From a virus, in IMG/VR virus record IMGVR_UViG_3300014492_000004, positions 1 to 39,559 of that record: 39,559 bases of DNA. One strand, 5' to 3'. The translations under genes and the position numbers were made by a program. Every line of letters begins with the position of its first letter. Position 1 is the first letter of the stretch. Below the pieces are notes generated by a model. The model did not search any database. It was given only the letters and a program-made list of their open reading frames with translations, and was not told where the DNA came from. This document shows positions 122-31,856 of the stretch, in pieces.

Positions 122-354
122 CCGAGGTCATCTACCTGGTGCGCATGGTGGCACGAGAACTCGCAAGGCAAGAGCGTGAGCGAAAGGACGCCCAAGAGGC
201 GCAGGAAAAGCGCGAGGCCGACAAGAAGCTGCGGGCAAAGGTACGCGCCGAGATCATATCTGACTTAGTTAGGGTGAACGTTAACAGCTCAGTAGAAGGG
301 ATCTCGGACGCCATCTTGGCTGGCCTCGTGCGCCATGTAAAGGTGGTGTTCTGA
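118..354 (+). CDS. Small charged helical protein
   Basis: This 78-residue protein is of unknown function. The GTG start at 118 overlaps the stop of the ERF gene, and a GGGAGG ribosome site lies 5-6 bases upstream. Residues 12-45 are rich in Arg, Lys, Glu and Ala (RELARQERERKD, EKREADKKLRAK) and probably form a long charged helix or coiled coil; the C-terminal part is more hydrophobic. The stop overlaps the ATG of the exonuclease gene (TGATG). A position between an annealing protein and an exonuclease suggests a recombination accessory, but that is context only. Confidence 0.7.
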   Translation: MTEVIYLVRMVARELARQERERKDAQEAQEKREADKKLRAKVRAEIISDLVRVNVNSSVEGISDAILAGLVRHVKVVF

Positions 355-1079
355 TGCCGAACTACCGCTACGATCTAGCGCAGGGCACGGAAGCCTGGAT
401 GGAGGCGCGGTTGGGAATCCCTACGGCGTCGGAGTTCGACCGCATCATCACGCCGGCCAAACTCCAACTCGCCAGCGCCAGCACGAAGTACATGCACCTC
501 AAGCTGGCCGAGTGGATGATGGGCGCACCGCTGGAGGCGTTCGTGTCGCCGTGGATGGAGCGCGGGGCGGCGCTCGAAGCGGAGGCTGTGCGTTACTACG
601 AGATGGAGCGCGACGTCGAGACCGCCAAGGTCGGACTGGTCACCACCGAAGACGGCATGATTGGTGCCAGTCCGGATCGGCTGGTGAGAGCGGACGGTCT
701 GCTCGAGCAGAAGTGCCCAGCGCTCGAAACGCACGTCGGCTACCTGCTTGACCCGGCTTCCCTAGTCGCAGAGTACCGCCTTCAGGTGCAGGGGCAACTG
801 TGGGTCTGCCAACGCGAGTGGTGTGACATGCAGAGCTACTACCCCGGTTTCCCGAGCGTCATTGTCCGGGTATATCGCGAGCAGAAGGTCCAGGACGCGC
901 TGTCCATCCACATCCCTACCTTCGTCGCCGACATGCTGGGGGTGCGCGTTAAACTGCTGGCGCAGTACGGCGAGCTCCGGCGCGAGCGGATCGGCGTGGC
1001 GAAGGCCGCCGAGATCCTGGAGTCCCGGCGCGCTGCGCACGACGAGTGGATGGATTCGCCGGTGGGAGGTGTGGTGTGA
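354..1079 (+). CDS. YqaJ-like phage exonuclease
   Basis: The 241-residue protein is likely the 5'-3' dsDNA exonuclease partner of the ERF annealing protein, equivalent in role to lambda Exo with Bet. Visible features match the YqaJ/lambda-exonuclease fold. They are the N-terminal W-x-E-x-R-x-G-I-P-T-A-S-x-F block (residues 15-28), an acidic ERG site (69-71), the ASPDRL motif with D108, E118-x-K120 and the later QVQGQLW helix (145-151). These would form the metal-binding PD-(D/E)XK core. Upstream it overlaps a small gene and downstream it overlaps another, so it sits inside a coupled recombination operon. The length is normal for the family. Confidence 0.88.
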   Translation: MPNYRYDLAQGTEAWMEARLGIPTASEFDRIITPAKLQLASASTKYMHLKLAEWMMGAPLEAFVSPWMERGAALEAEAVRYYEMERDVETAKVGLVTTEDGMIGASPDRLVRADGLLEQKCPALETHVGYLLDPASLVAEYRLQVQGQLWVCQREWCDMQSYYPGFPSVIVRVYREQKVQDALSIHIPTFVADMLGVRVKLLAQYGELRRERIGVAKAAEILESRRAAHDEWMDSPVGGVV

Positions 1080-2691: not shown

Positions 2692-2937
2692 ATGCCAAGA
2701 CTCTGCCGAATCGCCGAGAATTTCTTAACTTACCGATCTGAGGTAATTCCCCAAGACGCTCCGCCAGTGCAGATCGAGGAATGCCGTCGCGCATTCTTCG
2801 CTGGTGCCGTGGCGCTCTACTTACTTGTGTTGGCTGGGTTATCGCCAAACCCAGGGGTCACGCCTGAAGATATGTCTTTCATGGCAGATGTCGACGCCGA
2901 ATTGACAGCGTTTCTGAAGAGCGTGACAAGCCGATGA
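2692..2937 (+). CDS. Hypothetical protein
   Basis: This 81-residue protein starts at ATG 2692, eight bases after an AAGGAG ribosome site. A hydrophobic stretch at residues 35-50 (FFAGAVALYLLVLAGL) could be a membrane helix or the core of a small helical fold. The C-terminal half is acidic (TPEDMSFMADVDAELTAF). Its stop overlaps the ATG of the RusA-like gene, so the two are probably co-translated. Confidence 0.65.
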   Translation: MPRLCRIAENFLTYRSEVIPQDAPPVQIEECRRAFFAGAVALYLLVLAGLSPNPGVTPEDMSFMADVDAELTAFLKSVTSR

Positions 2938-3383
2938 TTTCCGTGCCGCGGTTCGTAATCCGAAACGCGCCCCGATCCAAGAAGAACTCGCCGCGTATCG
3001 TCAACATCGGACCCATGTGCCGGGTGTGCGGCCGGCGCGGCGGATTTCCCAAGGTCCTGCCGTCGCTCGCGTTTGAGGAGTGGCAGTCCGACGCGATCCG
3101 GCAGTGCATGCTGATCAAGCCGAAGTTGATCGCGGCCGGCGTCGAACTTCCCATCGTGCATCCCATCGGCATCGAGGCGCTGTTCTACCTGGCGCCCACG
3201 AAGGCGGGCGCTATGCGCCTCGACTGCCCCGACCTGTCCAACCTCATGGAGGCCGTCGCCGACATGCTCCAGGAGGCTGGAATCATCAAGGACGACCGTT
3301 TGATCAAGGACTGGGATGGGAGCCGACGTTTGCTCGGCGAGCCACGCGTCGAAATATTCATCGAAATCCTGAGGGGATCGTGA
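2934..3383 (+). CDS. rusA: RusA-like Holliday junction resolvase
   Basis: The 149-residue protein is likely a RusA-family endonuclease that resolves recombination or replication junctions before packaging. RusA hallmarks are visible: an N-terminal basic PRSKKNSPRI segment (13-22), the acidic DCPDLSNLMEAVADMLQEAG block (97-116) with D97/D100, N103 and D110, and the following IIKDDRLI (D120/D121). A short CRVCGRRGG loop at 29-37 is an addition to the basic family outline. The stop overlaps the GTG of the methyltransferase. Its place between recombination and replication genes fits the usual context. Confidence 0.85.
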   Translation: MISVPRFVIRNAPRSKKNSPRIVNIGPMCRVCGRRGGFPKVLPSLAFEEWQSDAIRQCMLIKPKLIAAGVELPIVHPIGIEALFYLAPTKAGAMRLDCPDLSNLMEAVADMLQEAGIIKDDRLIKDWDGSRRLLGEPRVEIFIEILRGS

Positions 3384-7892: not shown

Positions 7893-8639
7893 CTACTGCC
7901 CCTTGATCGCTACGGAAGCGCCGCACCAGTCGGTCGTAGATGCTGGATTGGTGGCTGTTACCGCGTAATTTCCGGCTGAAGTTGCAGACAGGTTATACCC
8001 TTCAGAGGAAATATAACCAGCATCCGCATAGATGGAAACCCAAGGGGTTGTATAAGTCTGAGTCCCGGAGGTTGAAAAATCCGTCCACCCTGCCAGCAGA
8101 AATTCGTTCCCTTTTGAGACAGACAGAGAAGTCAAACTCATCGCGGAGGTTGCGCTTCCCGTGTTACATCCCTCCGAGTGTACGTCTACTAGGGGAGTTG
8201 TGACGTTGTGCAGTTGTATCGCCGTAAGTCCTTTGTGGGTGAGCGCAGAACTAATTGTAAGTGTGACAAGATCTGTAGAATTTAGAGCCGTCACGGGAGC
8301 CGTAAACATCTCAACATATGACCCGCCAGATTTACCAGCTAAGGACACCCCGGTGAATACGTTCCCCGCGGTGTCTGAAACTGAGCCGGTGACCCCCGCG
8401 CTAAAGTCCCAATACGCAAACACGACAATCGCATCACCTGTCACCAGAGTGTCAAAGTGCCCTGTGGATATACACGTAGTGCCGCTGGCATTGCAGGTTA
8501 GATTAGCCACCGTGTACGCACCCACCCACGACGGCTGATTTGTCCATTTAGCCACCGTCGAGAATGGCAGCGTTGGCACATACTGCGGCCAGAACATCAG
8601 CAGCAGGTGAGCGAGGAATTTGGAGATGAGAGGTGTCAT
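7893..8639 (-). CDS. Beta-rich appendage or exported protein
   Basis: The 248-residue protein is read from ATG 8639, which overlaps the stop of the upstream fibre gene and lies seven bases after GGAGGG. The first 30 residues are hydrophobic (LISKFLAHLLLMFWPQYV) and could be an uncleaved anchor or a poor signal peptide. The rest is Ser/Thr/Gly-rich beta sequence (GDAIVVFAYWDF, NVFTGVSLAGKSGGSYVEMF, WCGASVAIKG). This looks like one or two jelly-roll or Ig-like domains, as in carbohydrate-binding phage proteins. Function is inferred only from composition and context. Confidence 0.62.
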   Translation of the reverse strand: MTPLISKFLAHLLLMFWPQYVPTLPFSTVAKWTNQPSWVGAYTVANLTCNASGTTCISTGHFDTLVTGDAIVVFAYWDFSAGVTGSVSDTAGNVFTGVSLAGKSGGSYVEMFTAPVTALNSTDLVTLTISSALTHKGLTAIQLHNVTTPLVDVHSEGCNTGSATSAMSLTSLSVSKGNEFLLAGWTDFSTSGTQTYTTPWVSIYADAGYISSEGYNLSATSAGNYAVTATNPASTTDWCGASVAIKGQ

Positions 8640-10168
8640 CGCACTACCCTCCAATTAATGGTTAAAGCTCCAGGGGTGATAATCCCGGTGCTCCAGTTAC
8701 ACACATCGAAGTTAACATTGCCACTGGTCGGATAGGCCGCGATACTGAGACCTCCCGTTGTCGCTGGGACATAGCCCGTAACCGCCTTGATTGACGCATT
8801 GGGGTTCCAGATTATCGAATCGGTCGAGACTACGTTTGTTGCTGTGGTCGTGACGACCGTAGCACAGGCTGTAGAAGCGATGGAGGAAGTACCAAGGGCT
8901 GATGTCCCGCTGGCGATGGTCGTGGTGAGGCCACCTGCCGCCGATAGGTTGTTACCGATGGCTGTCACTACCCCCGTGCCGGTGGTCGTAGTGGCTGATG
9001 CTTGACTCCCCGATCCAATAACCACTGCACCACTCGTTAATGATGCGGCACTGGTTACGCACGTAGTACAGGTGATTGTGCCCGTTGCTGTGATCGTGCC
9101 GCCACCGATTGGTCCAGTCGTGGCAATGCTAGTTACTGTGCCGGTAGGTAGCGCTCCCCCGTCCTGCAATAGGCTACCGTTCGTTCCGTTGAATGTCGCG
9201 ACGTGCCCGCTTGTTGCGCTTGCAGGTCCCATCACAACCGGGATGCTGCCGCCCGATGTCATCCACTCAGGACCGGAGAGAGTCGATAGCGCACACAGGA
9301 ATCCAGCGCCAGCCGGGACTGTGCCAGAGCATGTTCCCGTCCCAAATCCATCCAGACCTGCCGTACCCGTGAACCATGCAGACGCTGGAGGGCTAGTGCC
9401 TGTGGACACGCTGGTCGCGGTCGCTGCGCCGAGAACTGGGGCCACCAGGGTTTTATTCGATAATGTCTGCGTGGCAGTCGTGCCCACAACCTGCTGTGCA
9501 ATCGCTGCGGGGTCGTAGGTGGACGTGTTCATGTTGCCGCTGCCTGAACCGCCGCCGATAGTCGCCCAAGTACAAGAACCGCCAGAGCATGCGCAGCCGG
9601 ACAGCTGCCCGGCGCCCGTTCCAGTTCCGTTGTTGAAGTTGAGCGGTTGTGGCGGCACGCAAACCCCACTCGGGTTAGTCGTCACATTCACCAGCGCCGT
9701 GGTCACCTGCGTTCCCGTGTAGGGATTCGGAACGAGGTAAATGAGCACCTGGCCCGTAGCGCTGGCTACGGACTGCCCGCTGACATTCAGCGTCAAAGTG
9801 CCGCTCAAAATCTGCGGTGGGCTGATGAGCGATACCTTAGATGTCGTGGAACTGAGAGTGCTCCCCGCGCCGGCCAACACGTCAACCGATGCCGTGTTCG
9901 TCACAGTGACGCTGTAGCCGTTTGTGGGGGCCGTCGTCGCGCCGGGGATGAATTCGCCCTCATAGATTAGATAGCCTTGAAGTTGGGCCTGTTGGATGAG
10001 CGCCGCGGCCGCCGTGGCTGGTACGGACCCCGTGGAAGCATCTCCGGTCCACGCATAGGTGAGCACCCACACGGGTACTGCCGTAGGCGTGAGGGGCGCC
10101 AGCGTGACGTTTACGGTGCCAGCGGCGAAGGCGCACGAGGACATCAGGAACAGAAGGAGTTTTTTCAT
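8636..10168 (-). CDS. Tail fibre with Sec signal peptide
   Basis: The 510-residue protein begins with MKKLLLFLMSSCAFA, a canonical signal peptide cut before AGTVNV. Residues 20-165 match, at lower identity, the N-terminal domain of both tailspikes: WVLTYAWTGDAS, GYSVTVTNTASVDVLAGA, GTLTLNVSGQSVASATG. Two phage-fibre hallmarks follow: TATQTLSNKTLVAPVLGAAT (about 231-250) and GHVATFNGTNGSLLQDGG. The C-terminal half is Ser/Thr/Gly-rich beta fibre. The signal peptide on a protein with fibre repeats is unusual. It overlaps the next gene by ATGA. Confidence 0.78.
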   Translation of the reverse strand: MKKLLLFLMSSCAFAAGTVNVTLAPLTPTAVPVWVLTYAWTGDASTGSVPATAAAALIQQAQLQGYLIYEGEFIPGATTAPTNGYSVTVTNTASVDVLAGAGSTLSSTTSKVSLISPPQILSGTLTLNVSGQSVASATGQVLIYLVPNPYTGTQVTTALVNVTTNPSGVCVPPQPLNFNNGTGTGAGQLSGCACSGGSCTWATIGGGSGSGNMNTSTYDPAAIAQQVVGTTATQTLSNKTLVAPVLGAATATSVSTGTSPPASAWFTGTAGLDGFGTGTCSGTVPAGAGFLCALSTLSGPEWMTSGGSIPVVMGPASATSGHVATFNGTNGSLLQDGGALPTGTVTSIATTGPIGGGTITATGTITCTTCVTSAASLTSGAVVIGSGSQASATTTTGTGVVTAIGNNLSAAGGLTTTIASGTSALGTSSIASTACATVVTTTATNVVSTDSIIWNPNASIKAVTGYVPATTGGLSIAAYPTSGNVNFDVCNWSTGIITPGALTINWRVVR

Positions 10169-15171: not shown

Positions 15172-16683
15172 CTATGCGTCCTCTGTCGGGGGGCCGGTGT
15201 TGTCGCAGTCCAGCAGCCCCTGCGCGATCCGCACCAGTTGCGTGCTGCTCGTGATGTTCACCTGGAGCCGCATGTCACGTGAGCGACCCATTTGGTTGGT
15301 GAAATAGCGCGTTCCCCACGGCGCCCCGCTCGGCCCTCCCTGGTTCGCCGCTTGCTTCATTGCCCGCGCCTGGGTGCCGAAGTTCCGGCCGCCGTCGTTC
15401 GACCAGTTCAGCGTGGCCGCCGCGGTGCCGATGTCACAATCGAGTTCGAAGCGGTCGAAGGTATGCACGAGGTTATCGCGGAACACGGGGCCGCTCTGCC
15501 GGGTGTAGGTGATGGCGGTACCGGCGTCAGATGGCGTGATGATTTGCTGGGTATAGAGGGCGTTGCTGCCAATGTCGCCAACGAAGGTCCCTCCACTCAA
15601 CGTTCCGAACTGCGGAATCGAAGCAACCCCAGTAATTGGTACCGGTCCAGCATAGGCGCGCTCATGCCAGAGCCCAGTGGTGAGGTCGTAGCACAAGTGG
15701 ATCAATCCGTTAACGGCAAAGTTCAGGACTGAAAGGCAATAGAATGTGTGTCCTGCTTCCTGATATGGATAAGCCCAAGCGGACGGAATGCCAACCGAAG
15801 CACTGGCATATTGAAGTAGAAATTCGATTGACGCATTACTCACCCGAACTGGGTTAAGTCCCTGCATCATGTAGACTTGCGGGCAACCATTGGGGTCGCC
15901 CCCTAGAAACATCAGGCAATTGTAGAACTTAACAAGGGAATGCGGAGCCACGAGACCCAGACCGATTTGCCCGCCGTTAACGCGCGAGAACGGGAAACCG
16001 GCTGCATTCCCGGCGTCATACCAGATTTCAAGAGTACTCTGACCGAATATGTACAGGAGACCATTCAGCCATTCCAAGCCGTTCACAAGGTCACTGGCAC
16101 CCGAGCGGATGACATAAGCTGGCAATGGACCGGGCAAAGGGGTCCAGTTGGTTGCGTCTCCGAAAGCCGATGCGTTGATCTGGTTTGGGTTGCCAGCATT
16201 CACAAGAGACGCGCCGGTAGCCACTGCTATTTGAAATCCATCAGCGTAAGTCATAGCGGTAGCGTTGAACTGCGGAGTGAGCGTGGCGACGTCGAAGATT
16301 TTACTCTGGGAACTGTCCAGCATCATTAACTGGAAGGCAGCCGATCCCGCGTTCTGCGCGAACTTTATCGGACCTGTCGATCCTCCTCCGAAGCTGCCGA
16401 AGTCAGTGACGACTCCTCCAGTGGTGGAAACTTCATAGACGTGGGTCCCGGCAGCAGCGAACAGCCGCCGATTGCCCGCCCACAGTCCGCCGCGAAGAAT
16501 AGGACCGGTAGGGAGTCCCGATCCAAACGCAAAAAGCCCCGGACGTCCCGTGAGCATCAACTGCGATTTACTGTCGCCCAGGCCAGCTTCAGGGTAGAGG
16601 TTTATTGACCGCTGCGAGTCGAGTACCGGCGAGGGTAGCAGGTAAGTCGGGCCGGTGAACTGAAAATTTGGGACACGAGGCAC
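15172..16683 (-). CDS. Packaged-DNA stabilisation hub, gp10-like
   Basis: I chose GTG 16683, just past the upstream stop and preceded by GAGG, giving 503 residues; a GTG at 16728 would add 15. The protein matches the P22 gp10 pattern: N-terminal VPNFQFTGPTYLLPSPVLDS and RSINLYPEAG, then beta-rich repeats (GLWAGNRRLFAAAGTHVYEV, LEWLNGLLYIFGQSTLEIWY). The C-terminus reads HTFDRFELDCDIG and GRSRDMRLQVNI. In P22 this protein plugs the head-tail channel below the adaptor ring. The gp4-like gene lies directly upstream. Confidence 0.82.
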   Translation of the reverse strand: MPRVPNFQFTGPTYLLPSPVLDSQRSINLYPEAGLGDSKSQLMLTGRPGLFAFGSGLPTGPILRGGLWAGNRRLFAAAGTHVYEVSTTGGVVTDFGSFGGGSTGPIKFAQNAGSAAFQLMMLDSSQSKIFDVATLTPQFNATAMTYADGFQIAVATGASLVNAGNPNQINASAFGDATNWTPLPGPLPAYVIRSGASDLVNGLEWLNGLLYIFGQSTLEIWYDAGNAAGFPFSRVNGGQIGLGLVAPHSLVKFYNCLMFLGGDPNGCPQVYMMQGLNPVRVSNASIEFLLQYASASVGIPSAWAYPYQEAGHTFYCLSVLNFAVNGLIHLCYDLTTGLWHERAYAGPVPITGVASIPQFGTLSGGTFVGDIGSNALYTQQIITPSDAGTAITYTRQSGPVFRDNLVHTFDRFELDCDIGTAAATLNWSNDGGRNFGTQARAMKQAANQGGPSGAPWGTRYFTNQMGRSRDMRLQVNITSSTQLVRIAQGLLDCDNTGPPTEDA

Positions 16684-16685
16684 AT

Positions 16686-17489
16686 TTACCTCATTGACCT
16701 TCCGGTCGTCCCCAGGAGCCAGTTCCACCCGCGGTTGGTGTTCGAAGTTCCGCAGTACGCCGGGTCGCCTCGCATCTCGGGGTCGGGAGCGTTGTCGGAC
16801 TTCACGAGCTCCATTGATTCGATGGCCTGGCGCTTCACATCCTCGAGCGCCGCTTCACTCACCTGCCAGTCGATGCGCCCCATCTTGTTGTACAGCTTCA
16901 TCATGGGCGCGATGTTGACCGCGAGATTCTTGCGAATCATGCGCTCGTAGCCGGGAGGGAAGCTGTAAACCGTCGTCAGGTCCACGAACGATGTGAATGG
17001 CATCGTTAACGACGTGTAGAGTTCGATCTGGTCGGAGTTCAGATCGCCAGGCCAGATCAGGATTGTCCCGGCGCCGGTCGCGGTGAAGTCCTTCACGTAG
17101 TACAACGTGAGCGGCAGAGCGTTGGGCAGGTTCTGAATCCCGATGTCACTCCATCGATCGACGTTAACGATGTTCATCGGAATGCGTAACACGGGGTTAA
17201 CGGTGGTCAGGACGAGGTTTGCATCCCGAATCAGGTTGGGCCGCGGGCCAGTCCAGTTCGGCGTGGTCTCATTGGGGCCGATGGTGTACGTCTGCTGTGA
17301 ACCATTCAGCGGGTACAGAGCGGCAGGATAGCAATAGGCCATCAGTTCATCAATCAGCCACGCATCGAGCATCTGATTGGCTTCCGTGCGGATGTCTTGC
17401 AGCACGTCCGTGCTCGTAGTCTGGCCGGGACGCAGGTTCCCGATGTCGCGGAGGGCCTGATACGCGAGATTGGTTAGAGACTGGCTCAC
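16686..17489 (-). CDS. Head-tail adaptor, gp4-like
   Basis: The 267-residue protein begins with a helical MSQSLTNLAYQALRDIGNLR and EANQMLDAWLIDELM, as in gp4-like tail accessory factors that ring the portal. A beta middle follows (PLNGSQQTYTIGPNETTPNW, IPMNIVNVDRWSDIGI, LPLTLYYVKDFTATGAGTIL). A second helical part carries PPGYERMIRKNLAVNIAPMM and a helix beginning SEAALEDVKRQAIESMELVK. Its start overlaps the hydrolase stop and its stop precedes the hub gene, the order found in P22-like genomes. Confidence 0.78.
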   Translation of the reverse strand: MSQSLTNLAYQALRDIGNLRPGQTTSTDVLQDIRTEANQMLDAWLIDELMAYCYPAALYPLNGSQQTYTIGPNETTPNWTGPRPNLIRDANLVLTTVNPVLRIPMNIVNVDRWSDIGIQNLPNALPLTLYYVKDFTATGAGTILIWPGDLNSDQIELYTSLTMPFTSFVDLTTVYSFPPGYERMIRKNLAVNIAPMMKLYNKMGRIDWQVSEAALEDVKRQAIESMELVKSDNAPDPEMRGDPAYCGTSNTNRGWNWLLGTTGRSMR

Positions 17490-19815: not shown

Positions 19816-20862
19816 CTAGTAAACCATCATGAACGGCCCGTACAGCGTGGTGAACGTTGTAGTGGGCGTAATCGCGGTTACGGTGCCGAAAACGCCAGCG
19901 GCTTTTTTGACCGTACCCATGAGAGTCGGCGCGCCGCCTGTTTTGTAGGCGGTGAACGTGTCTGTCGTCCCGTTGCCTTGCAACCCGATGAAATAGGTGG
20001 CCGGGCCAACGAGATTGACTGTAGCGGTCCATGCGGCGCACTGGTATAGCGATGCGCCCGAGGTGGTGACGCCAGCTAGGGCAGTAGTGGCGACGACCGC
20101 GCCGGTGGCATCCCAAATAGCGAAAAGCCACTTGTCCGTTCCGACCGTGGCGCCGTTGAGCACGCACGCGCCGGTAGAGGTAAAGGAATTGGGAATTTGG
20201 ATTTGGGTAGCCCATTCCACGCCCGCGATATCCGTTACCGCAGTGCCGGCGATGCTGTTGGAAAGCGTGGTAAAGGCCGTGTACGGGTTCACGTTCGTTA
20301 CGGGACCTTGAGCTTCCCCAAGAGTCGTTGTGGACCAATACCCGGACACGCAATTAGCCAAACCACCGGAGAAATCCGAGTTATTCGGCCCGTAGACGAT
20401 GACGGGCAGGGAATACTGTACGGAAGCGGTACAAGTGCCGCTAGGCACGTTCGGGGTAAAAATGCCACCGGAGAACGGGTGCGAGTTATCGCCGCTCCCG
20501 GTTGCAACGTTTCCGACCCATAAAGTAGCGTTGACGGAGTGGCCGTAATTCGCCGAAGTCCCAAGCTGCCCGCGCTTGACGTTGTAGCAGGTGCTGGAAG
20601 ATCCGGCGGAAACTACTTGCGCGACCTCCTTGTCCACGAACAAGTAAGAGCCGACAGCGTTCGCCGAGAGAGACGGCAGGACTACGCCGGTCGCCGAAGT
20701 CAGGCACCATTGGCTCTGGCTGGCTACATTTCCGCCGCCTGCCAGAACAGCCACGGAAAGGGTAGTACTGGTGGTGGTCAACTGCGCTTGCGCCGGGACG
20801 ATTCCGAGCAAAGCCGCTGCCACCAGAGATGCGATTCGAATTAAGTTTTTCATGATGTTCAT
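19816..20862 (-). CDS. Exported protein next to coat gene
   Basis: The 348-residue protein is read from ATG 20862, seven bases after AGGAG; an internal ATG follows three codons later. It starts with a clear Sec signal (MKNLIRIASLVAAALLGIVPAQA, cut before QLTTTS). The mature part is Thr/Ser/Gly-rich beta sequence with seven or so cysteines (SSSTCYNVKRGQLG, VPSGTCTASVQYSLP, SLYQCAAWTATVNLV), which suits disulphides formed outside the cytoplasm. It lies 22 bases after the coat gene, where decoration proteins are common. The signal peptide argues for export instead, or for an unusual assembly route. Confidence 0.72.
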   Translation of the reverse strand: MNIMKNLIRIASLVAAALLGIVPAQAQLTTTSTTLSVAVLAGGGNVASQSQWCLTSATGVVLPSLSANAVGSYLFVDKEVAQVVSAGSSSTCYNVKRGQLGTSANYGHSVNATLWVGNVATGSGDNSHPFSGGIFTPNVPSGTCTASVQYSLPVIVYGPNNSDFSGGLANCVSGYWSTTTLGEAQGPVTNVNPYTAFTTLSNSIAGTAVTDIAGVEWATQIQIPNSFTSTGACVLNGATVGTDKWLFAIWDATGAVVATTALAGVTTSGASLYQCAAWTATVNLVGPATYFIGLQGNGTTDTFTAYKTGGAPTLMGTVKKAAGVFGTVTAITPTTTFTTLYGPFMMVY

Positions 20863-23231: not shown

Positions 23232-23674
23232 ATGGGAGGGAGATTTATTCGAGACCATAGGAGGCGCATTCCCTGCTCATATTCATGCACAAGGAGGATT
23301 ATCTGCTGGAACTGCCCCGTGGTCTCCTACTGCCTTATGGTGCGCCTCTCGGCGTGAGCTTCGACCGGGGCGTATGCGCCTGTGCTGCATCTACCAGCAG
23401 CCCGTTGCCCGGATTTCGACAGTATTCGACGGTTCGCTACAGTATGGGATTGCGACGGTTGATTAACGCTTGTGCCAGAGGCCCGTTGCACGCGGCGCAA
23501 GACTCCCGCCGCACCTCGAAGAGTGAGAGCAGAGGGATACTGCATTGATTTGGGCCTCGGATTGGATTGGGCTGTAATCATTCCCTCTGTCAAGGGTTGC
23601 GGTTGGGCGAGTGTGACAGCACCCGCCCTGGGGACCGCAAAAGGTTTCGAACGAATTCAGGATATCACAAACGC
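23232..23674. other. Noncoding stretch between tailspike and scaffold units
   Basis: I see no gene I can support here. Open frames exist on both strands but have odd composition and no convincing ribosome site. The minus strand has imperfect repeats (AACCGTCG and ATACTGT pairs near 23425-23475) and a distant eight-base inverted repeat (CAGAGGGA with TCCCTCTG, about 23536-23604). It may be leader DNA, a small RNA gene or degraded sequence. Confidence 0.5.
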
Positions 23675-23717
23675 AAAAAGGCCGGAAGCCCATTTCTGGG
23701 AATCCGGCCTCTTTTCC
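23675..23717 (-). terminator. Intrinsic terminator after tailspike unit, possibly bidirectional
   Basis: The stem pairs AGGCCGGA (23679-23686) with TCCGGCCT (23703-23710), with an inner CCCA/TGGG pair around TTTC. On the minus strand it is followed by TTTTTGCG; on the plus strand by CTTTTCC. It ends the portal-tailspike transcript before the scaffold promoter. Confidence 0.8.
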
Positions 23718-23737
23718 TTCGTAAGAATGTGCGGGGC

Positions 23738-23806
23738 TTAACTCTTCGCGCTCGGCGTGGCTGCGGGCGGCGTGACCGCGCCAGCATAAAGACTACCTGC
23801 GATTGT
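23738..23806 (-). pseudogene. Possible remnant of a structural-protein C-terminus
   Basis: The minus strand reads TIAGSLYAGAVTPPAATPSA then KS and TAA, directly before the terminator and directly after an in-frame TAG at 23807-23809. The same frame upstream of the TAG reads YPLTWQPAEP. There is no proper start. It looks like the end of a lost gene, but it is short enough to be chance. Confidence 0.3.
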
Positions 23807-23870: not shown

Positions 23871-26222
23871 TTATTGACTCATATCCAACCATACAGAACC
23901 ATTATACAAAAGGGAAATTACTGATCCAGAGGGATAACCAGTAGCAATATTATTTGCCGGATTAAGATGGGATTTGATTGCTACTGCACTTCCTCCACCT
24001 AGAGCAAAGGTGTTCGCCCCAGCCTGGAGGGTGTGAGCCAGTAAGATCTGCACCTGCATACCTGTCACCGCTTGCTGAGACAGCAGTATCAGGCTGGAGA
24101 ATCTGCCAACTATAGCATTGTTGGCTCCTGTTTCGGACGCAATGAAATTGATCGCCGGGCTCTGGACGGTAGCCGCCGTCGAGAAATTTCCCAAGTAATC
24201 TATATATCCTTTAGCCGTATAAGCACAAGATGGGCAACCGCTTACGTAGCGCCATTGCCAATTGCCACCAACTGTATAATTGTCCGAGTAACGATTGCCG
24301 CCGTTCTCTGATTCGGTGGCTATATTAGTCCCGTCAGTAAGTGTCTCTAATCCGTTGATCTTAAAACCTACATAATTATTCGTGTAGTCCTGGTAAGCTC
24401 CTCGCAGACCTCCAGCAGGGAAAGATGTCTTCCATCCTTGTGTGGCGGACACGTAGTTGTAATTGTTTCCAGTTATGACGTGAAGATCATCTTGGGCGAT
24501 AGAGATAGCGGTCGAATATTGTCCGGGAACCTGCGCAAGAAACTGATTTCCTATTGCGATAAGCTGTGCAGATCCTCCTCCGGCCTGCCGAATATCGATG
24601 AATTTAGATCCGAATGAAGATAGGCCCGGTGGCGTTACGTGATTGTTCATGAGGCTGATAACTAGTTCATTCGTATTCACGTCGCTCGCTTGGACGAGAA
24701 ACGGGACCGTCCCTCCTAAAAGCATTCCATCCAGGGTAATATGAGTCAGCCCTGAAAAATCATTGTCGATGTATACCGGCGTGGCTGATACGGACGCAGA
24801 AATGTACCCTCCATGAACCGCGAGTAAGCCACGGCTGAAATAGATTGCATACGGAACGATGCTACCGCCTTCGCTGAAACTGGAGTTAGTAACGTCCACG
24901 AGATGATAGCCCGCGCCACTGAATGTGGAAGAGTCCATATTGATCCCCCAAGACTCGAAGTCCCACTGGGAGATTTTTGTAAAACTTCCGGTGCCGTCCG
25001 CTCCAGCTACGAAGTTGAAGCATTGATACAAATAGCAGAGACCTTGTTCAAATTTTTGATCGTCAGCCCGCCCTACCTGTATGCCCACAACGCCAGCGTT
25101 AAATAGCCAATTAGACCCGATGTTTCCGAAGGGCCACAGATGAATTGCCCGAAAATAATTAGAGTCCAAAGATCCGTCAATGGAGATTCCTATGTCGTAA
25201 GCTGAAATGTCCAGATTCTCAAAATGACTACGGCCCGTATAGGCTTGCCATGCGCTACTGGCATAAGTTCCTTTGTAGCTTATTCCGTCCCAAGCACTCA
25301 CAATCGCAACGTTTTGAACATTAGCATCCAGTGTGTCATTCAGGTTGAGACCTGTCCAATGGGCAAGCAGCGTGCGGTTGGCGACCCCGAAGTTTTGAGG
25401 GAATACAATTTGAAAGTCTCGGAAGGATGGGCCAGCGATATTTTCGACCGGCTGGCCGCTGGAGCCACAGTCGGTATTGAACACCGCCGCAGTTGGATCA
25501 CTAGATGTTTGAGGAAAAGATGTTGTAGGCGCAATTATACTTCCCCGTCCAATTCCCACAACACTAGAATATTGCCAATTGGAACAAAGTGTTATTTTAC
25601 TACTAACTTTAAACGAACCAATTGGAATAAGAATTTCACCATTAACAGCTTCTGCTGCAGTTGCTGCCGCTTGAATAGCAACTGTAGAGTCCGCCACTCC
25701 GGTCGGATCGGCTCCGTATGTGCGTACGTCGAAAACCGGAGGATTCGTCATCGTCACCCAATTTGCAGGTACCGAAAGCGGGCCAGTGAATCCGAGTATA
25801 GGAGTGGAGGAAAGAAACACAAATACGGTTCCCTGTGAGTTCGCGACGGAGTTTCCGGTAAGCACGAGGGAGAAATTTCCTTGAATCGGTGGGGCTAACG
25901 CCGAGAATGCTTGGGCGGTAGAACCCAGATTTACAGCTGCCCCGGCAAGCGCGTCCACGCCGGCCGAATCGGTAATCCTCACCGAATAACCGGCAGTTGG
26001 CGATGGCGTACCCGGTACCGTTTCTACCTGGGTGATGAAATACCCGTTGCAGCAACCTTGCAGTTTGGCTGGAGTCACAGGCACAGACCCATTGCTGCCG
26101 GCGGTCCAATTGAAGGCCAATACCCAATTGCCGGACGTGCCGAGTTGCGAGATGGTCTGCTGTACTCCGGCCGCGCCGAACGCCGTACCGGCTAGAAAGA
26201 CCGCGAGTAGTGCCTTCTTCAT
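23871..26222 (-). CDS. Tailspike with Sec signal peptide and beta-helix
   Basis: The 783-residue protein starts at ATG 26222 after AGGAGGT. It begins with signal peptide MKKALLAVFLAGTAFG, then an N-terminal domain (about 18-160) nearly identical at its start to the next spike (GVQQTISQLGTSGNWVLAFN). At about 165 comes the pectate-lyase-type phrase DVRTYGADPTGVADSTVAIQ, which opens a right-handed beta-helix spanning most of the chain (IDGSLDSNYFRAIHLWPFGN, VDVTNSSFSEGGSI). The C-terminus is a small beta domain. It probably binds and may cut host surface glycans. It is the last gene before the terminator and differs from the second spike after the shared N-terminus. Confidence 0.85.
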   Translation of the reverse strand: MKKALLAVFLAGTAFGAAGVQQTISQLGTSGNWVLAFNWTAGSNGSVPVTPAKLQGCCNGYFITQVETVPGTPSPTAGYSVRITDSAGVDALAGAAVNLGSTAQAFSALAPPIQGNFSLVLTGNSVANSQGTVFVFLSSTPILGFTGPLSVPANWVTMTNPPVFDVRTYGADPTGVADSTVAIQAAATAAEAVNGEILIPIGSFKVSSKITLCSNWQYSSVVGIGRGSIIAPTTSFPQTSSDPTAAVFNTDCGSSGQPVENIAGPSFRDFQIVFPQNFGVANRTLLAHWTGLNLNDTLDANVQNVAIVSAWDGISYKGTYASSAWQAYTGRSHFENLDISAYDIGISIDGSLDSNYFRAIHLWPFGNIGSNWLFNAGVVGIQVGRADDQKFEQGLCYLYQCFNFVAGADGTGSFTKISQWDFESWGINMDSSTFSGAGYHLVDVTNSSFSEGGSIVPYAIYFSRGLLAVHGGYISASVSATPVYIDNDFSGLTHITLDGMLLGGTVPFLVQASDVNTNELVISLMNNHVTPPGLSSFGSKFIDIRQAGGGSAQLIAIGNQFLAQVPGQYSTAISIAQDDLHVITGNNYNYVSATQGWKTSFPAGGLRGAYQDYTNNYVGFKINGLETLTDGTNIATESENGGNRYSDNYTVGGNWQWRYVSGCPSCAYTAKGYIDYLGNFSTAATVQSPAINFIASETGANNAIVGRFSSLILLSQQAVTGMQVQILLAHTLQAGANTFALGGGSAVAIKSHLNPANNIATGYPSGSVISLLYNGSVWLDMSQ

Positions 26223-26301
26223 TGAATACCTCCTGGCGCGGGCTGGAGTGCTGCCTGTTGCGCCATCTGCTGCTGGTGCTGCATCCCCGTGACGTGCTCC
26301 A
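26132..26301 (-). repeat. Duplicated portal-end/spike-start segment, copy 1
   Basis: This 170-base segment matches 28731-28900 with two mismatches (26192 and 26288). It covers the first 30 or so codons of the spike, its ribosome site and the last codons of a portal fragment. Similarity continues rightward for another roughly 107 bases, with more than 20 mismatches. Confidence 0.92.
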
Positions 26302-26425
26302 CCGCATCCGTGGCTTCCGCCAGGTGGGTAACAACCGCATCATGGCTGTGGTCCATTTGCTTCTCAATCATGGCCTTGATGAGCTTGATTTTCTCCACGT
26401 CCACCTTGAGTACCACTCGTTTCAT
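26219..26425 (-). CDS. Portal C-terminal fragment gene (duplicate)
   Basis: The 68 codons from ATG 26425 encode a protein matching the last 60 residues of the portal (KVDVEKIKLIKAMIEKQMDH ... GMQHQQQMAQQAALQPAPGG) with only three changes (I/L, K/R, A/S). Most of the DNA differences from the portal gene are at third codon positions, so the peptide was selected somewhere. It begins just after the second spike's stop and its own stop overlaps the first spike's ATG (ATGA). It may be a recombination scar from another phage's portal, or a kept leader that delivers ribosomes to the spike. A start at 26446 is also possible. Confidence 0.6.
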   Translation of the reverse strand: MKRVVLKVDVEKIKLIKAMIEKQMDHSHDAVVTHLAEATDAVEHVTGMQHQQQMAQQAALQPAPGGIQ

Positions 26426-26430
26426 TCGGC

Positions 26431-28821
26431 TCACCATGGATTGCAACTGTAAACGAAAAAATGGCCATTGGCCGATGTAAAAGCGTTGAAACTGGCAGAG
26501 GTGGCGCTGAACCCAACATTAGGTAGAAAGGTTCCAGTCGTGGTGTCAGTAAGCGTGCAAGCGTATCCTCTCGCCGACGGCAAATTCCCCAGAGTTAGCG
26601 TACAGGTAGACTGCCCGGACTGGAACGTCCCGGACTGACTGAGGGAGCTGTACCCAACATTGGTCACCGTCCCACATCCCCCGAAAGTCGGCGCTCCAAC
26701 CCCCGTAGGGATCAACTGGTAATACCCATTCAGCGCCACGAACGGCTTAGTGAATCCCCACCCGTTAAAGTAATTGTCGTTGACCCAATTGTTACTATCC
26801 CCGCCGCCTCCCGTGTCGAAGAGAATAGCGGTCCCGGTGTTGCTGCCGATCGGCGGGAAGTAGTTCCCTACCGCCATAACTTTACCGCCGTCATGGTTGT
26901 AGATGGCGGGTATCAGGTAGTTGGTCGATGTAGAAGAATTCAGAATAATGTTGTCGTTGAAAAGCAGATCTCCAGGGATTACATTGCTGACGATCTGCCA
27001 CGAGCCACCCTGCCCCAGAAGGAACGTTACATTGGTGATTCCCAAGACACCGTTGTTGGAGAATAGTGGAGTTTCAGTGGAAAATACCACCCCGGTTTGC
27101 GTGCCGGCGGTCGACGTAAGGGTGATGGATATGTTGGAATTCCACGTCTGGATGGTATAGGGTAGGCCATTTATCAGGACCTGCCCCCCCGCAGCAAGCC
27201 CGGCAAAGTTCAGCAACCCAGATACGTATGACACCGCCGTTCCGGCCGTATTTACAATTCCGGTGTTAATCGCGTTCGAGATCAACCCGGACGAAATATT
27301 CAGAGTCCCATTTACTGTGAGAGTCGCCACCTGGCCAAACCCCAGTTTCCACACTCCGCTTGCCACTGAAAGCTGACCACAGTTCAGCTTAATCACCCCA
27401 TTAGCCGTATCTACCATCAGGCTCGAAACTGTTGCAAAAGTACAACTTCCACGCCCGTATGTCGGGTCATACTCGAAGTCCATCGTCACGGGGAAATTGG
27501 AGTTTTTGAAATTGGTCATCGCGAGATCATACAGCCCCGCCGTCCATAGAGCTGTCCCATGGGCGCCCCAAATCTGACCTTGGTTCCCGGTCATGTCGTG
27601 CGGATAGAACTGGTAGTTAGACAACGTTTCTTCGTTGTCCGATCCGTTCATCACAATCCCGTAGTTGAAGGCGGAAATCTCGATATTTGACAGCCTCACC
27701 TGAGTGCCGATTTCGACGAAAACCCAATTGCCGCCTGACACTGGACTTGTGGTCCCGCTGCACCCTCCCGTGGCGCACACGTATGTGATGCTAGCAACGG
27801 AGGCGAAAGCCCCGGCTGCATACGTATTGCCAGAAACCCAAGCCGGGGCTACCCCGTTTGGATGGATGCTGATTCCGGTCATAGCCTGGGTGATCTTGAC
27901 GCTGTCAATGGAGGCATAGTCGCACCCATAATAATCACCGCAAGCAATTCCTGGAGGAAAGTTTACCAGTGAGGCGTAGTTGGTCGTATCCGTGTTCTGG
28001 AAACGGATAGAGATGTCTCGGACCTTAGGAACACCTGGGCACAGATCACTTGTAATGGGGCAATTTGCATCCATTGCGTAGTTCAATACAAGCACGCCAA
28101 CCGCCGACAGATTGAACGACGGCGGCACTAGTATTACAGATCCTTGCCCATCGAAGACGATCGACCCCGTGCCGATGCAGGCATCAGTGAATTTGTATGT
28201 GCCGTAGGGGAACAGTACCGTGCCATTACCCATGGCTTGCGCCGCGGCGGCCGCGGAGTTACACGCGACCGTCGAGGACGAGACACCCGTGGGATCGCCG
28301 CCGAACACCCTGATGTCTACCACCGGGGAATTCGTCAGACTCAACCAATTCGTAGCTGCGGTATTGATAGCGGCCACGTTGACAGTCCTCTGTTTGGCGA
28401 TAAAAACGTATACCGTACCGGTCGCACTGGGTACCGAATTACCGGACAGCGAAAGCGTGAACGTTCCCTGAATGGGAGCCGCCGTTGTCGCCGCCGAGAA
28501 TCCTTGAGACAAAGTGTTACTCAGGGAAGACGCGGCCGAACCAAGCATATCGACTCCGGCCGAGTCCAGGATCTTGACGGAATAGCCCACAGTGGGTGCC
28601 ACCGCCGCGCCTGGGACAGTTTCCACCTGCACGACGTAGTACCCGTTACAGCAGCCTTGGAGCTCCGCTACCGTATTCGGTACGTTCCCGCTTCCGTCTG
28701 CCGTCCAGTTGTAGGCGAGCACCCAATTCCCGGACGTGCCGAGTTGCGAGATGGTCTGCTGTACTCCGGCCGCGCCGAACGCCGTACCGGATAGAAAGAC
28801 CGCGAGTAGTGCCTTCTTCAT
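26431..28821 (-). CDS. Second tailspike with Sec signal peptide
   Basis: The 796-residue protein starts at ATG 28821, inside the portal stop. The N-terminus repeats that of the first spike (MKKALLAVFLSGTAFG signal, then GVQQTISQLGTSGNWVLAYN). At about 168 it has VDIRVFGGDPTGVSSSTV, which opens a beta-helix. The rest is unrelated in detail to the first spike. It contains a carbohydrate-binding-like insert with the phrase YVCATGGCSGTTSPVSGG (about 335-352). The C-terminal 60 residues (STCTLTLGNLPSARGYACTL ... HFFVYSCNPW) have paired cysteines. Two different receptor-binding spikes suggest a broader or variable host-surface range. Confidence 0.85.
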   Translation of the reverse strand: MKKALLAVFLSGTAFGAAGVQQTISQLGTSGNWVLAYNWTADGSGNVPNTVAELQGCCNGYYVVQVETVPGAAVAPTVGYSVKILDSAGVDMLGSAASSLSNTLSQGFSAATTAAPIQGTFTLSLSGNSVPSATGTVYVFIAKQRTVNVAAINTAATNWLSLTNSPVVDIRVFGGDPTGVSSSTVACNSAAAAAQAMGNGTVLFPYGTYKFTDACIGTGSIVFDGQGSVILVPPSFNLSAVGVLVLNYAMDANCPITSDLCPGVPKVRDISIRFQNTDTTNYASLVNFPPGIACGDYYGCDYASIDSVKITQAMTGISIHPNGVAPAWVSGNTYAAGAFASVASITYVCATGGCSGTTSPVSGGNWVFVEIGTQVRLSNIEISAFNYGIVMNGSDNEETLSNYQFYPHDMTGNQGQIWGAHGTALWTAGLYDLAMTNFKNSNFPVTMDFEYDPTYGRGSCTFATVSSLMVDTANGVIKLNCGQLSVASGVWKLGFGQVATLTVNGTLNISSGLISNAINTGIVNTAGTAVSYVSGLLNFAGLAAGGQVLINGLPYTIQTWNSNISITLTSTAGTQTGVVFSTETPLFSNNGVLGITNVTFLLGQGGSWQIVSNVIPGDLLFNDNIILNSSTSTNYLIPAIYNHDGGKVMAVGNYFPPIGSNTGTAILFDTGGGGDSNNWVNDNYFNGWGFTKPFVALNGYYQLIPTGVGAPTFGGCGTVTNVGYSSLSQSGTFQSGQSTCTLTLGNLPSARGYACTLTDTTTGTFLPNVGFSATSASFNAFTSANGHFFVYSCNPW

Positions 28822-28900
28822 TGAATACCTCCTGGCGCGGGCTGGAGTGCTGCCTGTTGCGCCATCTGCTGCTGGTGCTGCATCCCTGTGACGTGCTCCA
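28731..28900 (-). repeat. Duplicated portal-end/spike-start segment, copy 2
   Basis: This is the partner of 26132-26301, offset by 2599 bases. Here the portal part belongs to the intact portal gene and the spike part to the second spike. Confidence 0.92.
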
Positions 28901-30929
28901 CTGCGTCCGTAGCTTCCGCCAGGTGCGTGACCACGGCATCGTGCGAGTGATCCATCTGTTTTTCGATCATGGACCGAATCAGCTTTAGTTTCTCCACGTC
29001 CACCTTGCCCTGCGTCTCGATGCTCTTGGTCTGGAGCTTCAGTGCCACCTGCTGCAAAAGCTGTTTGGCCTGCTGAAGTTGTTGAGTCAGCACCGCGTTC
29101 TGCTGCTGTAGTTGCGCTGGGTTAACCCCGCCCTTCTTGGCCTGCAAAGCTTGCTGAATCTGCGGCGGCATGGCAAGCTCTGCGATCTCGGCCAGGTCTT
29201 CGTACCCACGGAGCCGGAATATCGTCGGCAGGTAGAGCACGGCAAGCTGGGGGTCGGACTGCACTAACGATGTGAGGAAGTCGTCTTCCTCGTCCACCTT
29301 GGCCGCATAGGATTTCCCGGCTTGGATGATGACACCGTAGTCTCCGTCGTCGATCTTGATATGCGGCTGGCCCTCGTATCCCGGCACCTCGGGATTCACG
29401 CCGGGCTCCATATCCATCGTGATTGGCACGGTCTGGGATTGCCGCTGGTCTTCCTTCATGACCTTCCAGATCCGCGGCGTGTCGGCCAGCGAAAGCATGA
29501 GGTCAATCCCCACGCGGCCGGTATGCCACATAGCCTGTAGTCCGTTATCCTCGTAGTGAAAATTGGCCAGGGAGGTCTGCTGCGATCGGCGCTCTACGGC
29601 GATCCCTGACAGGTCGGCTTGCGATGGCTTGGTTACCGTGTCGACGTATCCGATAGCGCCCTTGAGCGCGTCAATACCCTGTGCCGTTGCTTCGGTCGAA
29701 CCCTGAATCATCGGCTCCGCATTGGCTCTTTCTGGGGGGGGCGCCAGGTTGCCTTGGATTGTGACAGGCTCGGCCTCGAGATAATAGTGCCGGCGGCCGT
29801 CGCGCCACTTCTTGTCCTTGAACTGGCCCTTCGTCCCGAGCCAAAGCGCGTCGTTAACGTCGGCCATGCGCGTTGCGGTCTTGGACATCCCAACGTTAAT
29901 GAATTGCTGTGGATCTCGAGCGTAACGCACCGCAGACACGTAACGTCGCTTTCCGTTACTGATTCTCTCCAGACCAAGCGTGGGGATGATGCCGATCCAT
30001 TCGGAAGCCCAAATCGACTCTTCGAGGCGTTTTTGACCATCTACGATGTCACGATGGACAATCCGCTCCGTCACCGGCCATGAGCGCGCCGGCTCGTCGC
30101 CTTCCATCAAGTCTTCGTCGGCCACTTCGGAGCCATCGGCCAATTGGTGCATCTTGGTTTCGACCTTCTCGACCCACCAATAGACGGCGACCCATACTGT
30201 GTCCTCGTCGCCCCATTCGTTGAGTTCCTCGCCGTCGGGGAACGGGAACGGAACGGCCTCGTAACCGGGGAATGCGCGCTCAAACTCTCCACGCTTATAG
30301 CGCTTGCGCTTGAAGGCATATTCGGCGTCGGAGTAGTCGAGTTCCTGAACGGCCGGGTCGAAATAGACGCTGAGAGGGTCGGGAACTCGCTTTAGCCGCG
30401 GCTCCTGGAGCCCCTTTCGACCGACGTACTCACAGGTCCACTCGACGTACCCGAACCCGCCAGAAGCCGCGTAAGCCTGGGCGCAGTCAAAGGCCAGGTC
30501 AGCGTGACTTTCGTAGAGGACATGGCGGAATTTACCCTCGATTATCTCGGCGGTCTGCGGGTTGCCCTCATCGCCCGCCGATACCTTGGGCTGTGGCCTG
30601 TCCTGGCGCGCCTGGTTTACAATCTGGTTTATCAGCGGATTTAGGCGGTCCATCGTTAGCGCCGGCACCCAGTCGGCGTCACGATTCTGCTTCACCACCG
30701 GGTCCCACTGATCGCTCGGGTCGCCGGACACGAAACGCAGATCCTCACGGAAGTCCTTGCGAGGGATCTCCCACCCAGTGCGGGCCGCCTCGAAGCGGTC
30801 GCGCATGGTCTGCATGTACTTTTCTTGGTCTTTCGTGGTTTTCTGGGAGGTTTTCTTTTCGGGAGGGGACTCGGGCCGCTGGATATTGTACGGCTGCGTG
30901 CCCGAGTTGGCGTAGGTGTTACGGCTCAT
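28818..30929 (-). CDS. Portal protein, P22 gp1-like
   Basis: The 703-residue protein forms the dodecameric vertex for DNA packaging and exit. The N-terminal region has TMRDRFEAARTGWEIPRKDF and ALTMDRLNPLINQIVNQARQ. The wing and stem region includes DPLSVYFDPAVQELDYSDAE, RKRYKRGEFERAFPG and a glutamine-rich helical C-terminus (LQQQNAVLTQQLQQAKQLLQ) that in P22 forms the internal barrel. Length and order agree with P22-type portals. The last 60 residues are duplicated before the first spike. A strong hairpin with a GUGA loop precedes the start. Confidence 0.88.
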   Translation of the reverse strand: MSRNTYANSGTQPYNIQRPESPPEKKTSQKTTKDQEKYMQTMRDRFEAARTGWEIPRKDFREDLRFVSGDPSDQWDPVVKQNRDADWVPALTMDRLNPLINQIVNQARQDRPQPKVSAGDEGNPQTAEIIEGKFRHVLYESHADLAFDCAQAYAASGGFGYVEWTCEYVGRKGLQEPRLKRVPDPLSVYFDPAVQELDYSDAEYAFKRKRYKRGEFERAFPGYEAVPFPFPDGEELNEWGDEDTVWVAVYWWVEKVETKMHQLADGSEVADEDLMEGDEPARSWPVTERIVHRDIVDGQKRLEESIWASEWIGIIPTLGLERISNGKRRYVSAVRYARDPQQFINVGMSKTATRMADVNDALWLGTKGQFKDKKWRDGRRHYYLEAEPVTIQGNLAPPPERANAEPMIQGSTEATAQGIDALKGAIGYVDTVTKPSQADLSGIAVERRSQQTSLANFHYEDNGLQAMWHTGRVGIDLMLSLADTPRIWKVMKEDQRQSQTVPITMDMEPGVNPEVPGYEGQPHIKIDDGDYGVIIQAGKSYAAKVDEEDDFLTSLVQSDPQLAVLYLPTIFRLRGYEDLAEIAELAMPPQIQQALQAKKGGVNPAQLQQQNAVLTQQLQQAKQLLQQVALKLQTKSIETQGKVDVEKLKLIRSMIEKQMDHSHDAVVTHLAEATDAVEHVTGMQHQQQMAQQAALQPAPGGIQ

Positions 30930-31271: not shown

Positions 31272-31380
31272 ATTTTCTCCCGTCCTTAATCGCTGCTACG
31301 GCGTACGCGAACACTATCACGACACAGAGGCCAGCGCCGAGGCCGAGCACGATACCCCAGAGCTTCTCGATTATCGGCAT
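31261..31380 (-). CDS. 39-residue single-span membrane protein
   Basis: ATG 31380 overlaps the upstream stop (TAATG). The peptide has one strong membrane helix (GIVLGLGAGLCVVIVFAYAV, residues 9-28) and a positive tail (IKDGRKYGR). It overlaps the next start by 11 bases. It could be a pinholin-like or regulator peptide, but the gene neighbourhood (chaperonin, portal) gives no lysis context. Confidence 0.58.
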   Translation of the reverse strand: MPIIEKLWGIVLGLGAGLCVVIVFAYAVAAIKDGRKYGR

Positions 31381-31856
31381 TATGCGGCCTCCAGCGGAAC
31401 TTGTTCGTTATCCAGAACGCACAGGACGTGCTGCTCCTCGTGGCAGATAGTGTACTCCTTCCCATTGATAATGACGTCGTTGGCCGGGATTCGCGGGTAG
31501 AGGATAATGTCCCCCGGCTTGACGCCCATCTCACAGCGCCCAACCTCTCCGGTTGACTCCAGATCTCCTCCGCACTCGAAGCATCGCCACGCGCGCCCGG
31601 CGACCCGCTGCGCCTCGGCGCCACACTGCACACACTTGGCGAATATGATCCGGTCGCCCGGGCCGACGGCCAGCACGCGGCCGCGGCGAATGCCCCGCGG
31701 CCTATCCGCGCGCCAGCGGCCGTCGCCAGTCATGTGCATCCCGGACTTGCGAACGGTTTCAGTCTCGGGGACGTGCTCGACGAGGCAGAAGTCTTGAAGG
31801 TGCTTCAGCTTCTCAATCGCGGCCGTGATGTTGCGGTACCCTTCTTCCCAGGCCAT
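31380..31856 (-). CDS. GroES-like co-chaperonin with zinc ribbon
   Basis: The 158-residue protein has GroES-like elements: an N-terminal strand LQDFCLVEHVPETETVRKSG, a mobile-loop-like stretch (about 38-55), then GIRRGRVLAVGPGD. The chain resumes with GVKPGDIILYPRIPANDVII and ends with YTICHEEQHVLCVLDNE. Between the two halves (about 72-110) lies an insertion with C75-x2-C78 and C92-x2-C95, a zinc-ribbon pattern. T4 gp31 is a phage GroES analogue that helps fold the capsid protein, so a similar role here is plausible. ATG 31856 overlaps the upstream stop. The insertion is the odd part. Confidence 0.72.
   Translation of the reverse strand: MAWEEGYRNITAAIEKLKHLQDFCLVEHVPETETVRKSGMHMTGDGRWRADRPRGIRRGRVLAVGPGDRIIFAKCVQCGAEAQRVAGRAWRCFECGGDLESTGEVGRCEMGVKPGDIILYPRIPANDVIINGKEYTICHEEQHVLCVLDNEQVPLEAA

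Follow-up and report, generated by a model that had tools for sequence, protein, structure and literature searches.

A tandem pair of tailspike genes in a P22-like podophage probably combines two alleles of one portal-end and spike unit

The virus record IMGVR_UViG_3300014492_000004 (39,559 bp, hereafter the window) has a 70-bp terminal repeat and comes from a soil-type phage whose P22-type gene set, with a portal (Table 1), a coat (PF11651, E=1.3e-21) and a small terminase (PF20901 Sf6, E=1.7e-35), identifies it as a P22-like podophage. It carries two tailspike genes in tandem, spike A and spike B, each directly behind a portal 3' end. These are probably two natural alleles of a unit made up of the portal 3' end and a tailspike, an incoming unit having been stacked before the native one and a short block at their shared start homogenised later. 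This reading draws on features that are seen directly in the DNA: a repeat and its two borders, a reversal of phylogenetic grouping between the repeat and its flanks, related viruses with a single spike, and a unique junction between the two units. The whole locus lies on the minus strand, in the order portal, spike A, portal-tail stump, spike B, scaffold (23146-22178) and coat (22147-20885).

A near-identical block spans the portal end and the spike start

Aligned at an offset of 2599, the two copies of the repeat mismatch only at 26192 and 26288, with a longest exact run of 95 nt (26193-26287), and the nearest mismatches beyond, at 26130 and 26303, delimit a block at 26131-26302. The original prediction, made from the letters of the window, had counted two mismatches among 170 bases between 26132-26301 and 28731-28900, a figure that we reproduced. 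Inside the block, AGGAGG stands six bases ahead of the spike start codon and, as also predicted, the ATG of each spike overlaps the TGA of the portal or of the portal stump (ATGA). On the portal side, 23/106 adjoining bases differ; over the full 189-nt portal tail, stop codon included, the two window copies show 24 differences, with 17 synonymous and three nonsynonymous codons (L/I, R/K, S/A), matching the three residue changes reported earlier. The drop in identity is equally sharp on the spike side, where 14/44 bases differ at 26087-26130. Thus, the abrupt step that had been placed at the spike start is real, but there are two such steps, at 26302/26303 in the portal end and at 26130/26131, ~90 nt past the spike start. 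Similarly, a portal 3' end does precede each spike, as had been described, although the second is a stump of ~63 codons rather than a gene copy. When 394 in-register bases containing 64 differences were permuted 20,000 times, neither a 172-base window with two or fewer differences nor a 95-base clean run occurred.

A single-spike relative groups differently inside and outside the block

One close relative was found in IMG/VR (record IMGVR_UViG_3300014838_000080, read as loci L003, L006 and L021). It has one spike directly behind its portal, with the same ATGA overlap, and a portal-tail probe detects a single copy in its record (once in L006, none in L021, the two loci together spanning it). 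A contig in a bog Methylocapsa metagenome-assembled genome (L017, 1-9208) is ~99-100% identical to this relative and has the same arrangement; the presence of a phage contig there is either a hint at the host or a binning error. A portal profile recovered ten loci in IMG/VR, most of them 27-31% identical. Gene order at the portal was read in three of these (L003, L004 and L005), and the other seven, used for a search with the spike N-terminal domain alone, gave no match to it. In the distant virus L004, with a portal 40% identical, the portal is followed by two other genes and then by a single spike that has this N-terminal domain too. A search with a degenerate DNA pattern made from the portal tail matched nothing but the single-spike relative, and the portal profile applied to genome contigs gave 107 pattern hits, of which 0 were confirmed.

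Outside the block, the relative sides mostly with the stump and spike B. Of the 24 tail positions at which the window copies differ, it matches the stump at 16, the full portal at 7 and neither at one, and it agrees with the stump at all three residue changes; in the spike flank (26010-26130), with 41 differing sites, it matches B at 31 and A at 6. Over all informative sites outside the block, 47 place the relative with the stump or spike B, 12 with the full portal or spike A, and 4 place the two window copies together. Inside the block, 25 sites group the window copies, one groups B with the relative and one groups A with the relative. Each block copy differs from the relative at 26 of 172 compared sites (83 portal and 89 spike), and 25 of these differences are common to both copies (5 in the portal part, 20 in the spike part). 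The incongruence (25 v 1 inside, 4 v 47 outside; Fisher p=5e-15, a test without the sites that pair A with the relative, of which there are 1 inside and 12 outside, or that have a different base in each of the three) is the flip between tract and flanks by which gene conversion is recognised. Read from these site patterns, it is the mark of exchange between two repeats once they stood together, or of recombination inside the block, supporting the recombination or conversion that had been suggested for the portal end and spike start. At the two sites where the block copies differ, the relative agrees once with each, so the direction of conversion cannot be read from them.

The full portal begins to diverge from the relative at nt 1788, 136 nt before the position corresponding to the stump 5' end (nt 1924), and 45 of its 92 differences from the relative fall at nt 1788-2112. 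Since the full portal departs upstream of the stump start, and given the site counts, its 3' end and spike A look like arrivals, and the stump and spike B like residents. The earlier description of a duplicated cassette is probably wrong, since the portal ends do not behave like recent copies of each other and the stump and first ~70 codons of spike B resemble the relative. An alignment of related genomes at the portal-spike junction had been proposed as a check; with this one close relative it favours exchange over the block and speaks against duplication, pointing to two different alleles in tandem instead.

The stump is joined to spike A at a unique junction

The stump has its own ATG (26435-26437), which overlaps the stop codon of spike A (ATGGTGA). 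Around the junction between the two, the longest string of 26409-26480 that recurs in the window or in the relative is 11 nt. Between the stump and the full portal end, nonsynonymous divergence (dN) is 0.076 over 35 codons, and synonymous divergence (dS) is not computable, i.e. saturated. We considered whether the low dN/dS proves that the stump encodes a functional protein and rejected this, as the two sequences may have diverged while each was still an ordinary portal end.

Table 1 Coordinates and supporting evidence for the features of the window discussed in the text
Feature	Coordinates	Strand	Evidence
Portal, P22-like, 703 aa	28818..30929	(-)	PF16510 E=3.2e-109; phrog_156 portal; 97% amino-acid identity to single-spike relative
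Divergent 3' segment of full portal (portal nt 1788-2028), read as incoming allele	28902..29142	(-)	alignment windows here at 81-83%, elsewhere mostly at 95-100%
Block copy 1, from the final ~80 nt of the portal through a Shine-Dalgarno sequence (AGGAGG, 28828-28833) and the ATGA overlap to ~90 nt into spike A	28730..28901	(-)	2/172 differences from copy 2
Spike A, 796 aa; N-terminal domain in common with spike B, central and C-terminal part of its own; read as incoming	26431..28821	(-)	39% identical to spike B (residues 1-452)
Junction of spike A 3' end and native portal stump	26408..26409	(-)	no repeat; ~15 nt similarity at most, where portal similarity begins
Portal-tail stump open reading frame, 72 aa; homologous part 26219-26408	26219..26437	(-)	92.6% nt identity to relative's portal end, 87.4% to window's own portal end
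Block copy 2, from the end of the portal stump through a Shine-Dalgarno sequence (AGGAGG, 26229-26234) and the ATGA overlap to ~90 nt into spike B	26131..26302	(-)	2/172 differences from copy 1
Spike B, 783 aa, pectate-lyase-like beta-helix; counterpart of relative's single spike	23871..26222	(-)	PF12708 E=1.8e-8; N-terminus and C-terminal ~80-90 aa common with relative's spike
Terminator-like hairpin, downstream of spikes	23679..23691	(-)	within stretch 23666-23781, 95% identical to single-spike relative
Third adhesin-like protein (distant locus), 510 aa, with the ~145-aa N-terminal domain of the spikes	8636..10168	(-)	hhalign probability 99.5, E=3.6e-22; hmmsearch E=1e-30
YqaJ-type exonuclease (phage recombination function)	354..1079	(+)	PF09588 E=2e-19
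RusA-like Holliday-junction resolvase	2934..3383	(+)	phrog_140 E=3.3e-8

A model for the tandem locus and its alternatives

We infer the following order of events, with a related phage as the donor. In a cell infected by two relatives, a divergent portal 3' end, together with its ribosome-binding site and spike A, would have entered from the donor and been joined to the native portal at about codon 642, the junction, formed without homology, lying behind the stop codon of spike A. The last ~63 codons of the native portal would thereby have been severed and retained in frame as a small open reading frame, coupled to spike A via the overlapping start, and this stump would supply the ribosome-binding site and ATGA overlap for native spike B. 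Homologous exchange between the repeats would afterwards have homogenised ~172 bp around the spike start, an exchange that the YqaJ exonuclease and RusA-like resolvase could serve. Repeats of about 190 bp should also permit the loss of spike A, giving single-spike forms.

Several observations weigh against this model. Past about spike codon 70, A and B lie at the same distance from the relative (12 v 16 sites), and by itself the portal tail gives weak evidence (16 v 7, two-sided binomial p=0.09). Nor is the stump a clean relative-type allele, as 7/24 tail sites fit the full portal, and it shows 8/106 differences outside the block. The polarity rests on one lineage, since the relative (L003) and the contig from the Methylocapsa genome (L017) may be one population. 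No donor was found, spike A peptide patterns being unmatched in IMG/VR and spike A as a query being unmatched among 50,697 phage records, and a structure model of the whole of spike A was discarded (pLDDT, the predicted local distance difference test, 35.5).

An ancient tandem could instead have been kept in the population, with single-spike viruses as deletion derivatives that arose when the two portal tails recombined. What remains after a deletion between direct repeats would be a stump-type tail followed by spike B, which the relative resembles, but such a deletion would be expected to leave a window-type portal upstream of the repeat, where the relative differs at 21 sites in nt 1788-1887, before nt 1924; moreover, the distant L004 likewise has one such spike behind its portal region. 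We consider this history unlikely. Also quite unlikely is the earlier picture of a tandem duplication of the portal 3' end and spike within the lineage, with copies that diverged and a 172-bp block that was converted later. The shared element order, the common N-terminal domain and the spikes' identity over residues 1-452 would fit such an origin; however, the copies are not sisters outside the block (47 sites for stump/B, 12 for full portal/A and 4 for the copies together, as above), and the synonymous divergence of the tails is near saturation, yet most of the portal is nearly identical to that of the relative.

An assembly chimera of two variants is very unlikely. The record is an assembled one with a terminal repeat of 70 bp, and the 95-bp exact repeat in the locus could tangle a short k-mer graph, but the spike A/stump junction lies outside any repeat (11 nt or fewer shared). 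Because the junction sequence is unique, repeat-driven misassembly cannot create it, and any spike A molecule carries the stump behind it, which leaves an error in copy number or a chimeric library molecule. That the near-identity of the block reflects nucleotide-level constraint (on a ribosome-binding site or signal-like peptide) and not conversion is scarcely credible: it does include AGGAGG and the ATGA overlap, and both spikes start in it, but each copy differs from the relative at 26/172 sites and the copies from each other at 2, so the block sequence is free to change.

The two spikes share their N-terminal domain

The N-terminal domains of spikes A and B show 66% mutual identity over ~150 residues. 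A beta-helix body was found in spike B (PF12708) and in the relative's spike (PF13229); for spike A, which has no Pfam match at E<=1, a beta-helix would follow solely from its homology with spike B (residues 1-452). At its C-terminal end, spike B matches the relative's spike over ~80-90 residues at 58-63%, and spike A lacks this part. With both ends in common with the relative's spike and a different middle, spike B displays the usual pattern for a swapped tip, which suggests that it is the native spike with such a swap. In an otherwise different 72.9-kb virus (L018:6090-8234), a spike with another N-terminus shares the C-terminal ~90 residues of spike B (60%); judged from this spike, the ~90-residue C-terminal module travels on its own.

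Modelling of the N-terminal domain gave a beta-sandwich at modest confidence (pLDDT 68.9), for which a PDB fold search yielded no match at E<=0.001 and a search of predicted viral structures yielded 10 matches at that threshold, mostly unnamed. No P22-type head-binding N-terminal domain was matched in Pfam at E<=1, either with the spikes or with their N-termini, and neither spike matched PDB sequences. Spike B, like spike A, found no match among the same phage records, and in IMG/VR it matched just the known relative.

Owing to the shared N-terminal domain, spikes A and B may occupy the same tail site. With the same virion-end domain and different distal parts, they may share or compete for these sites, giving mixed or alternative virions, and they may widen or hedge host recognition; that both are built into virions, and any effect on host range, we infer from the genes. 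The third adhesin-like protein, with the same N-terminal domain, is also present in the single-spike relative, where its first 210 residues are 98% identical. In a simple rule-based scan, virion-type proteins of the window, namely both spikes, the third adhesin-like protein and the product of 19816-20862, have Sec-signal-like N-termini, as do, judged by eye, the spikes of the relative (L003), L004 and L018. Such starts are odd for proteins assembled in the cytoplasm.

The spike region is an island in a conserved backbone

The compared backbone is mostly 97-100% identical to that of the relative, and about 98-99% on both sides of the spike island at ~23.2-29.2 kb, which is mostly unalignable or below about 91%, except at 26250-26499 (93.7%) and 23666-23781 (95%). 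A variable receptor-binding protein thus lies between conserved flanks in otherwise similar genomes, as in a homology-guided exchange cassette of receptor-binding proteins. Other patches of low identity lie at ~15.5-16.6 kb, 30.0-30.2 kb (portal nt 732-894) and 31.0-31.5 kb; on this alignment, the spike region is the largest exchanged region, not the sole one. The first of these patches (15500-16600, at 62-72% identity with neighbours at 97-100%) is mosaic and overlaps the Hc3 head-closure gene (15172-16728), and the second (30036-30198) holds 28 of the 92 portal differences from the relative. Near the portal, a GroES-like co-chaperonin gene (31380-31856) is matched by PF00166 over its C-terminal part only (residues 107-146) and by PHROG over its N-terminal part, a split that suggests an insert within the gene. 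The conserved terminator downstream of the spikes was downgraded as evidence, the window holding 3 terminator-like sites against a mean of 7.4 in shuffles.

Discussion

Exchange of receptor-binding domains by recombination has been described, with conserved DNA motifs flanking the tailspike proposed as hot spots (Pas et al. 2023, PMC10408124). As there, a variable spike lies between conserved flanks, which in this locus are the near-identical block over the spike start and the conserved terminator-like site behind the spikes; unlike there, the block straddles the portal end and spike start, and the result is two stacked spikes and a portal tail that has been displaced. The main text of that paper contains none of the words portal, duplication, tandem and gene conversion. 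Two-spike podophages are well described, with the adapter of K1-5/SP6 and the anchor-branched systems of G7C/KP32 (Latka et al. 2019, PMC6872550). As presented in that source, these phages carry two polysaccharide-directed spikes each, modular and horizontally spread, to which we liken the two spike genes of the present locus. In these phages, a short peptide links the second spike to a T4gp10-like adapter or branch, whereas here both spikes carry the same full N-terminal domain; Pfam matched no T4gp10-like domain in either spike, the other virion proteins having had no exhaustive check for an adapter.

In Klebsiella phages, receptor-binding proteins are swapped between co-infecting relatives, with replacement or acquisition in the laboratory (PMC12654880). 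Recombination between close relatives is likewise centred on the receptor-binding gene there, but the account of these swaps in that source describes no displaced portal fragment. Phage EfV12-phi1 is reported to have tandem duplications in its tail fibre, in-frame 1.8-kb copies inside one gene (PMC6365445); it resembles the present locus in having tandem copies in a host-recognition gene, and differs in that two divergent whole genes and the end of an upstream gene are involved here. Searches by exact phrase for papers on duplicated or tandem tailspikes matched none, and we make no claim that such a locus is unpublished. The locus is known in kind and unusually well preserved; it is set apart by its stacked alleles, which are separated by the truncated end of the upstream structural gene and have a conversion tract at their common start.

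The original proposal that the portal 3' end may be a landing site for receptor-binding genes is plausible: the block includes the ribosome-binding site of the spike as well as its start, and no variable island is larger than that of the spike, in a comparison with one other close lineage. In a bolder and rather unlikely version, the portal 3' end, ribosome-binding site and spike start would form a portable landing pad. Arriving spikes would bring their own copy and stack as a small array, exchange between pads would keep them alike, and the repeats would later excise one spike, so that the population would cycle between single-spike and double-spike forms.

Swapping of receptor-binding genes is known from its end products, and this locus keeps what appears to be an intermediate, with both spikes, the native stump, the unique junction and the conversion tract in place. 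The end of a structural gene, the portal, can be carried along with a spike. The ~190-bp repeats make this step testable, as single-spike forms should arise and show in reads. Together, these features suggest a route by which a phage may add a second specificity while keeping the first.
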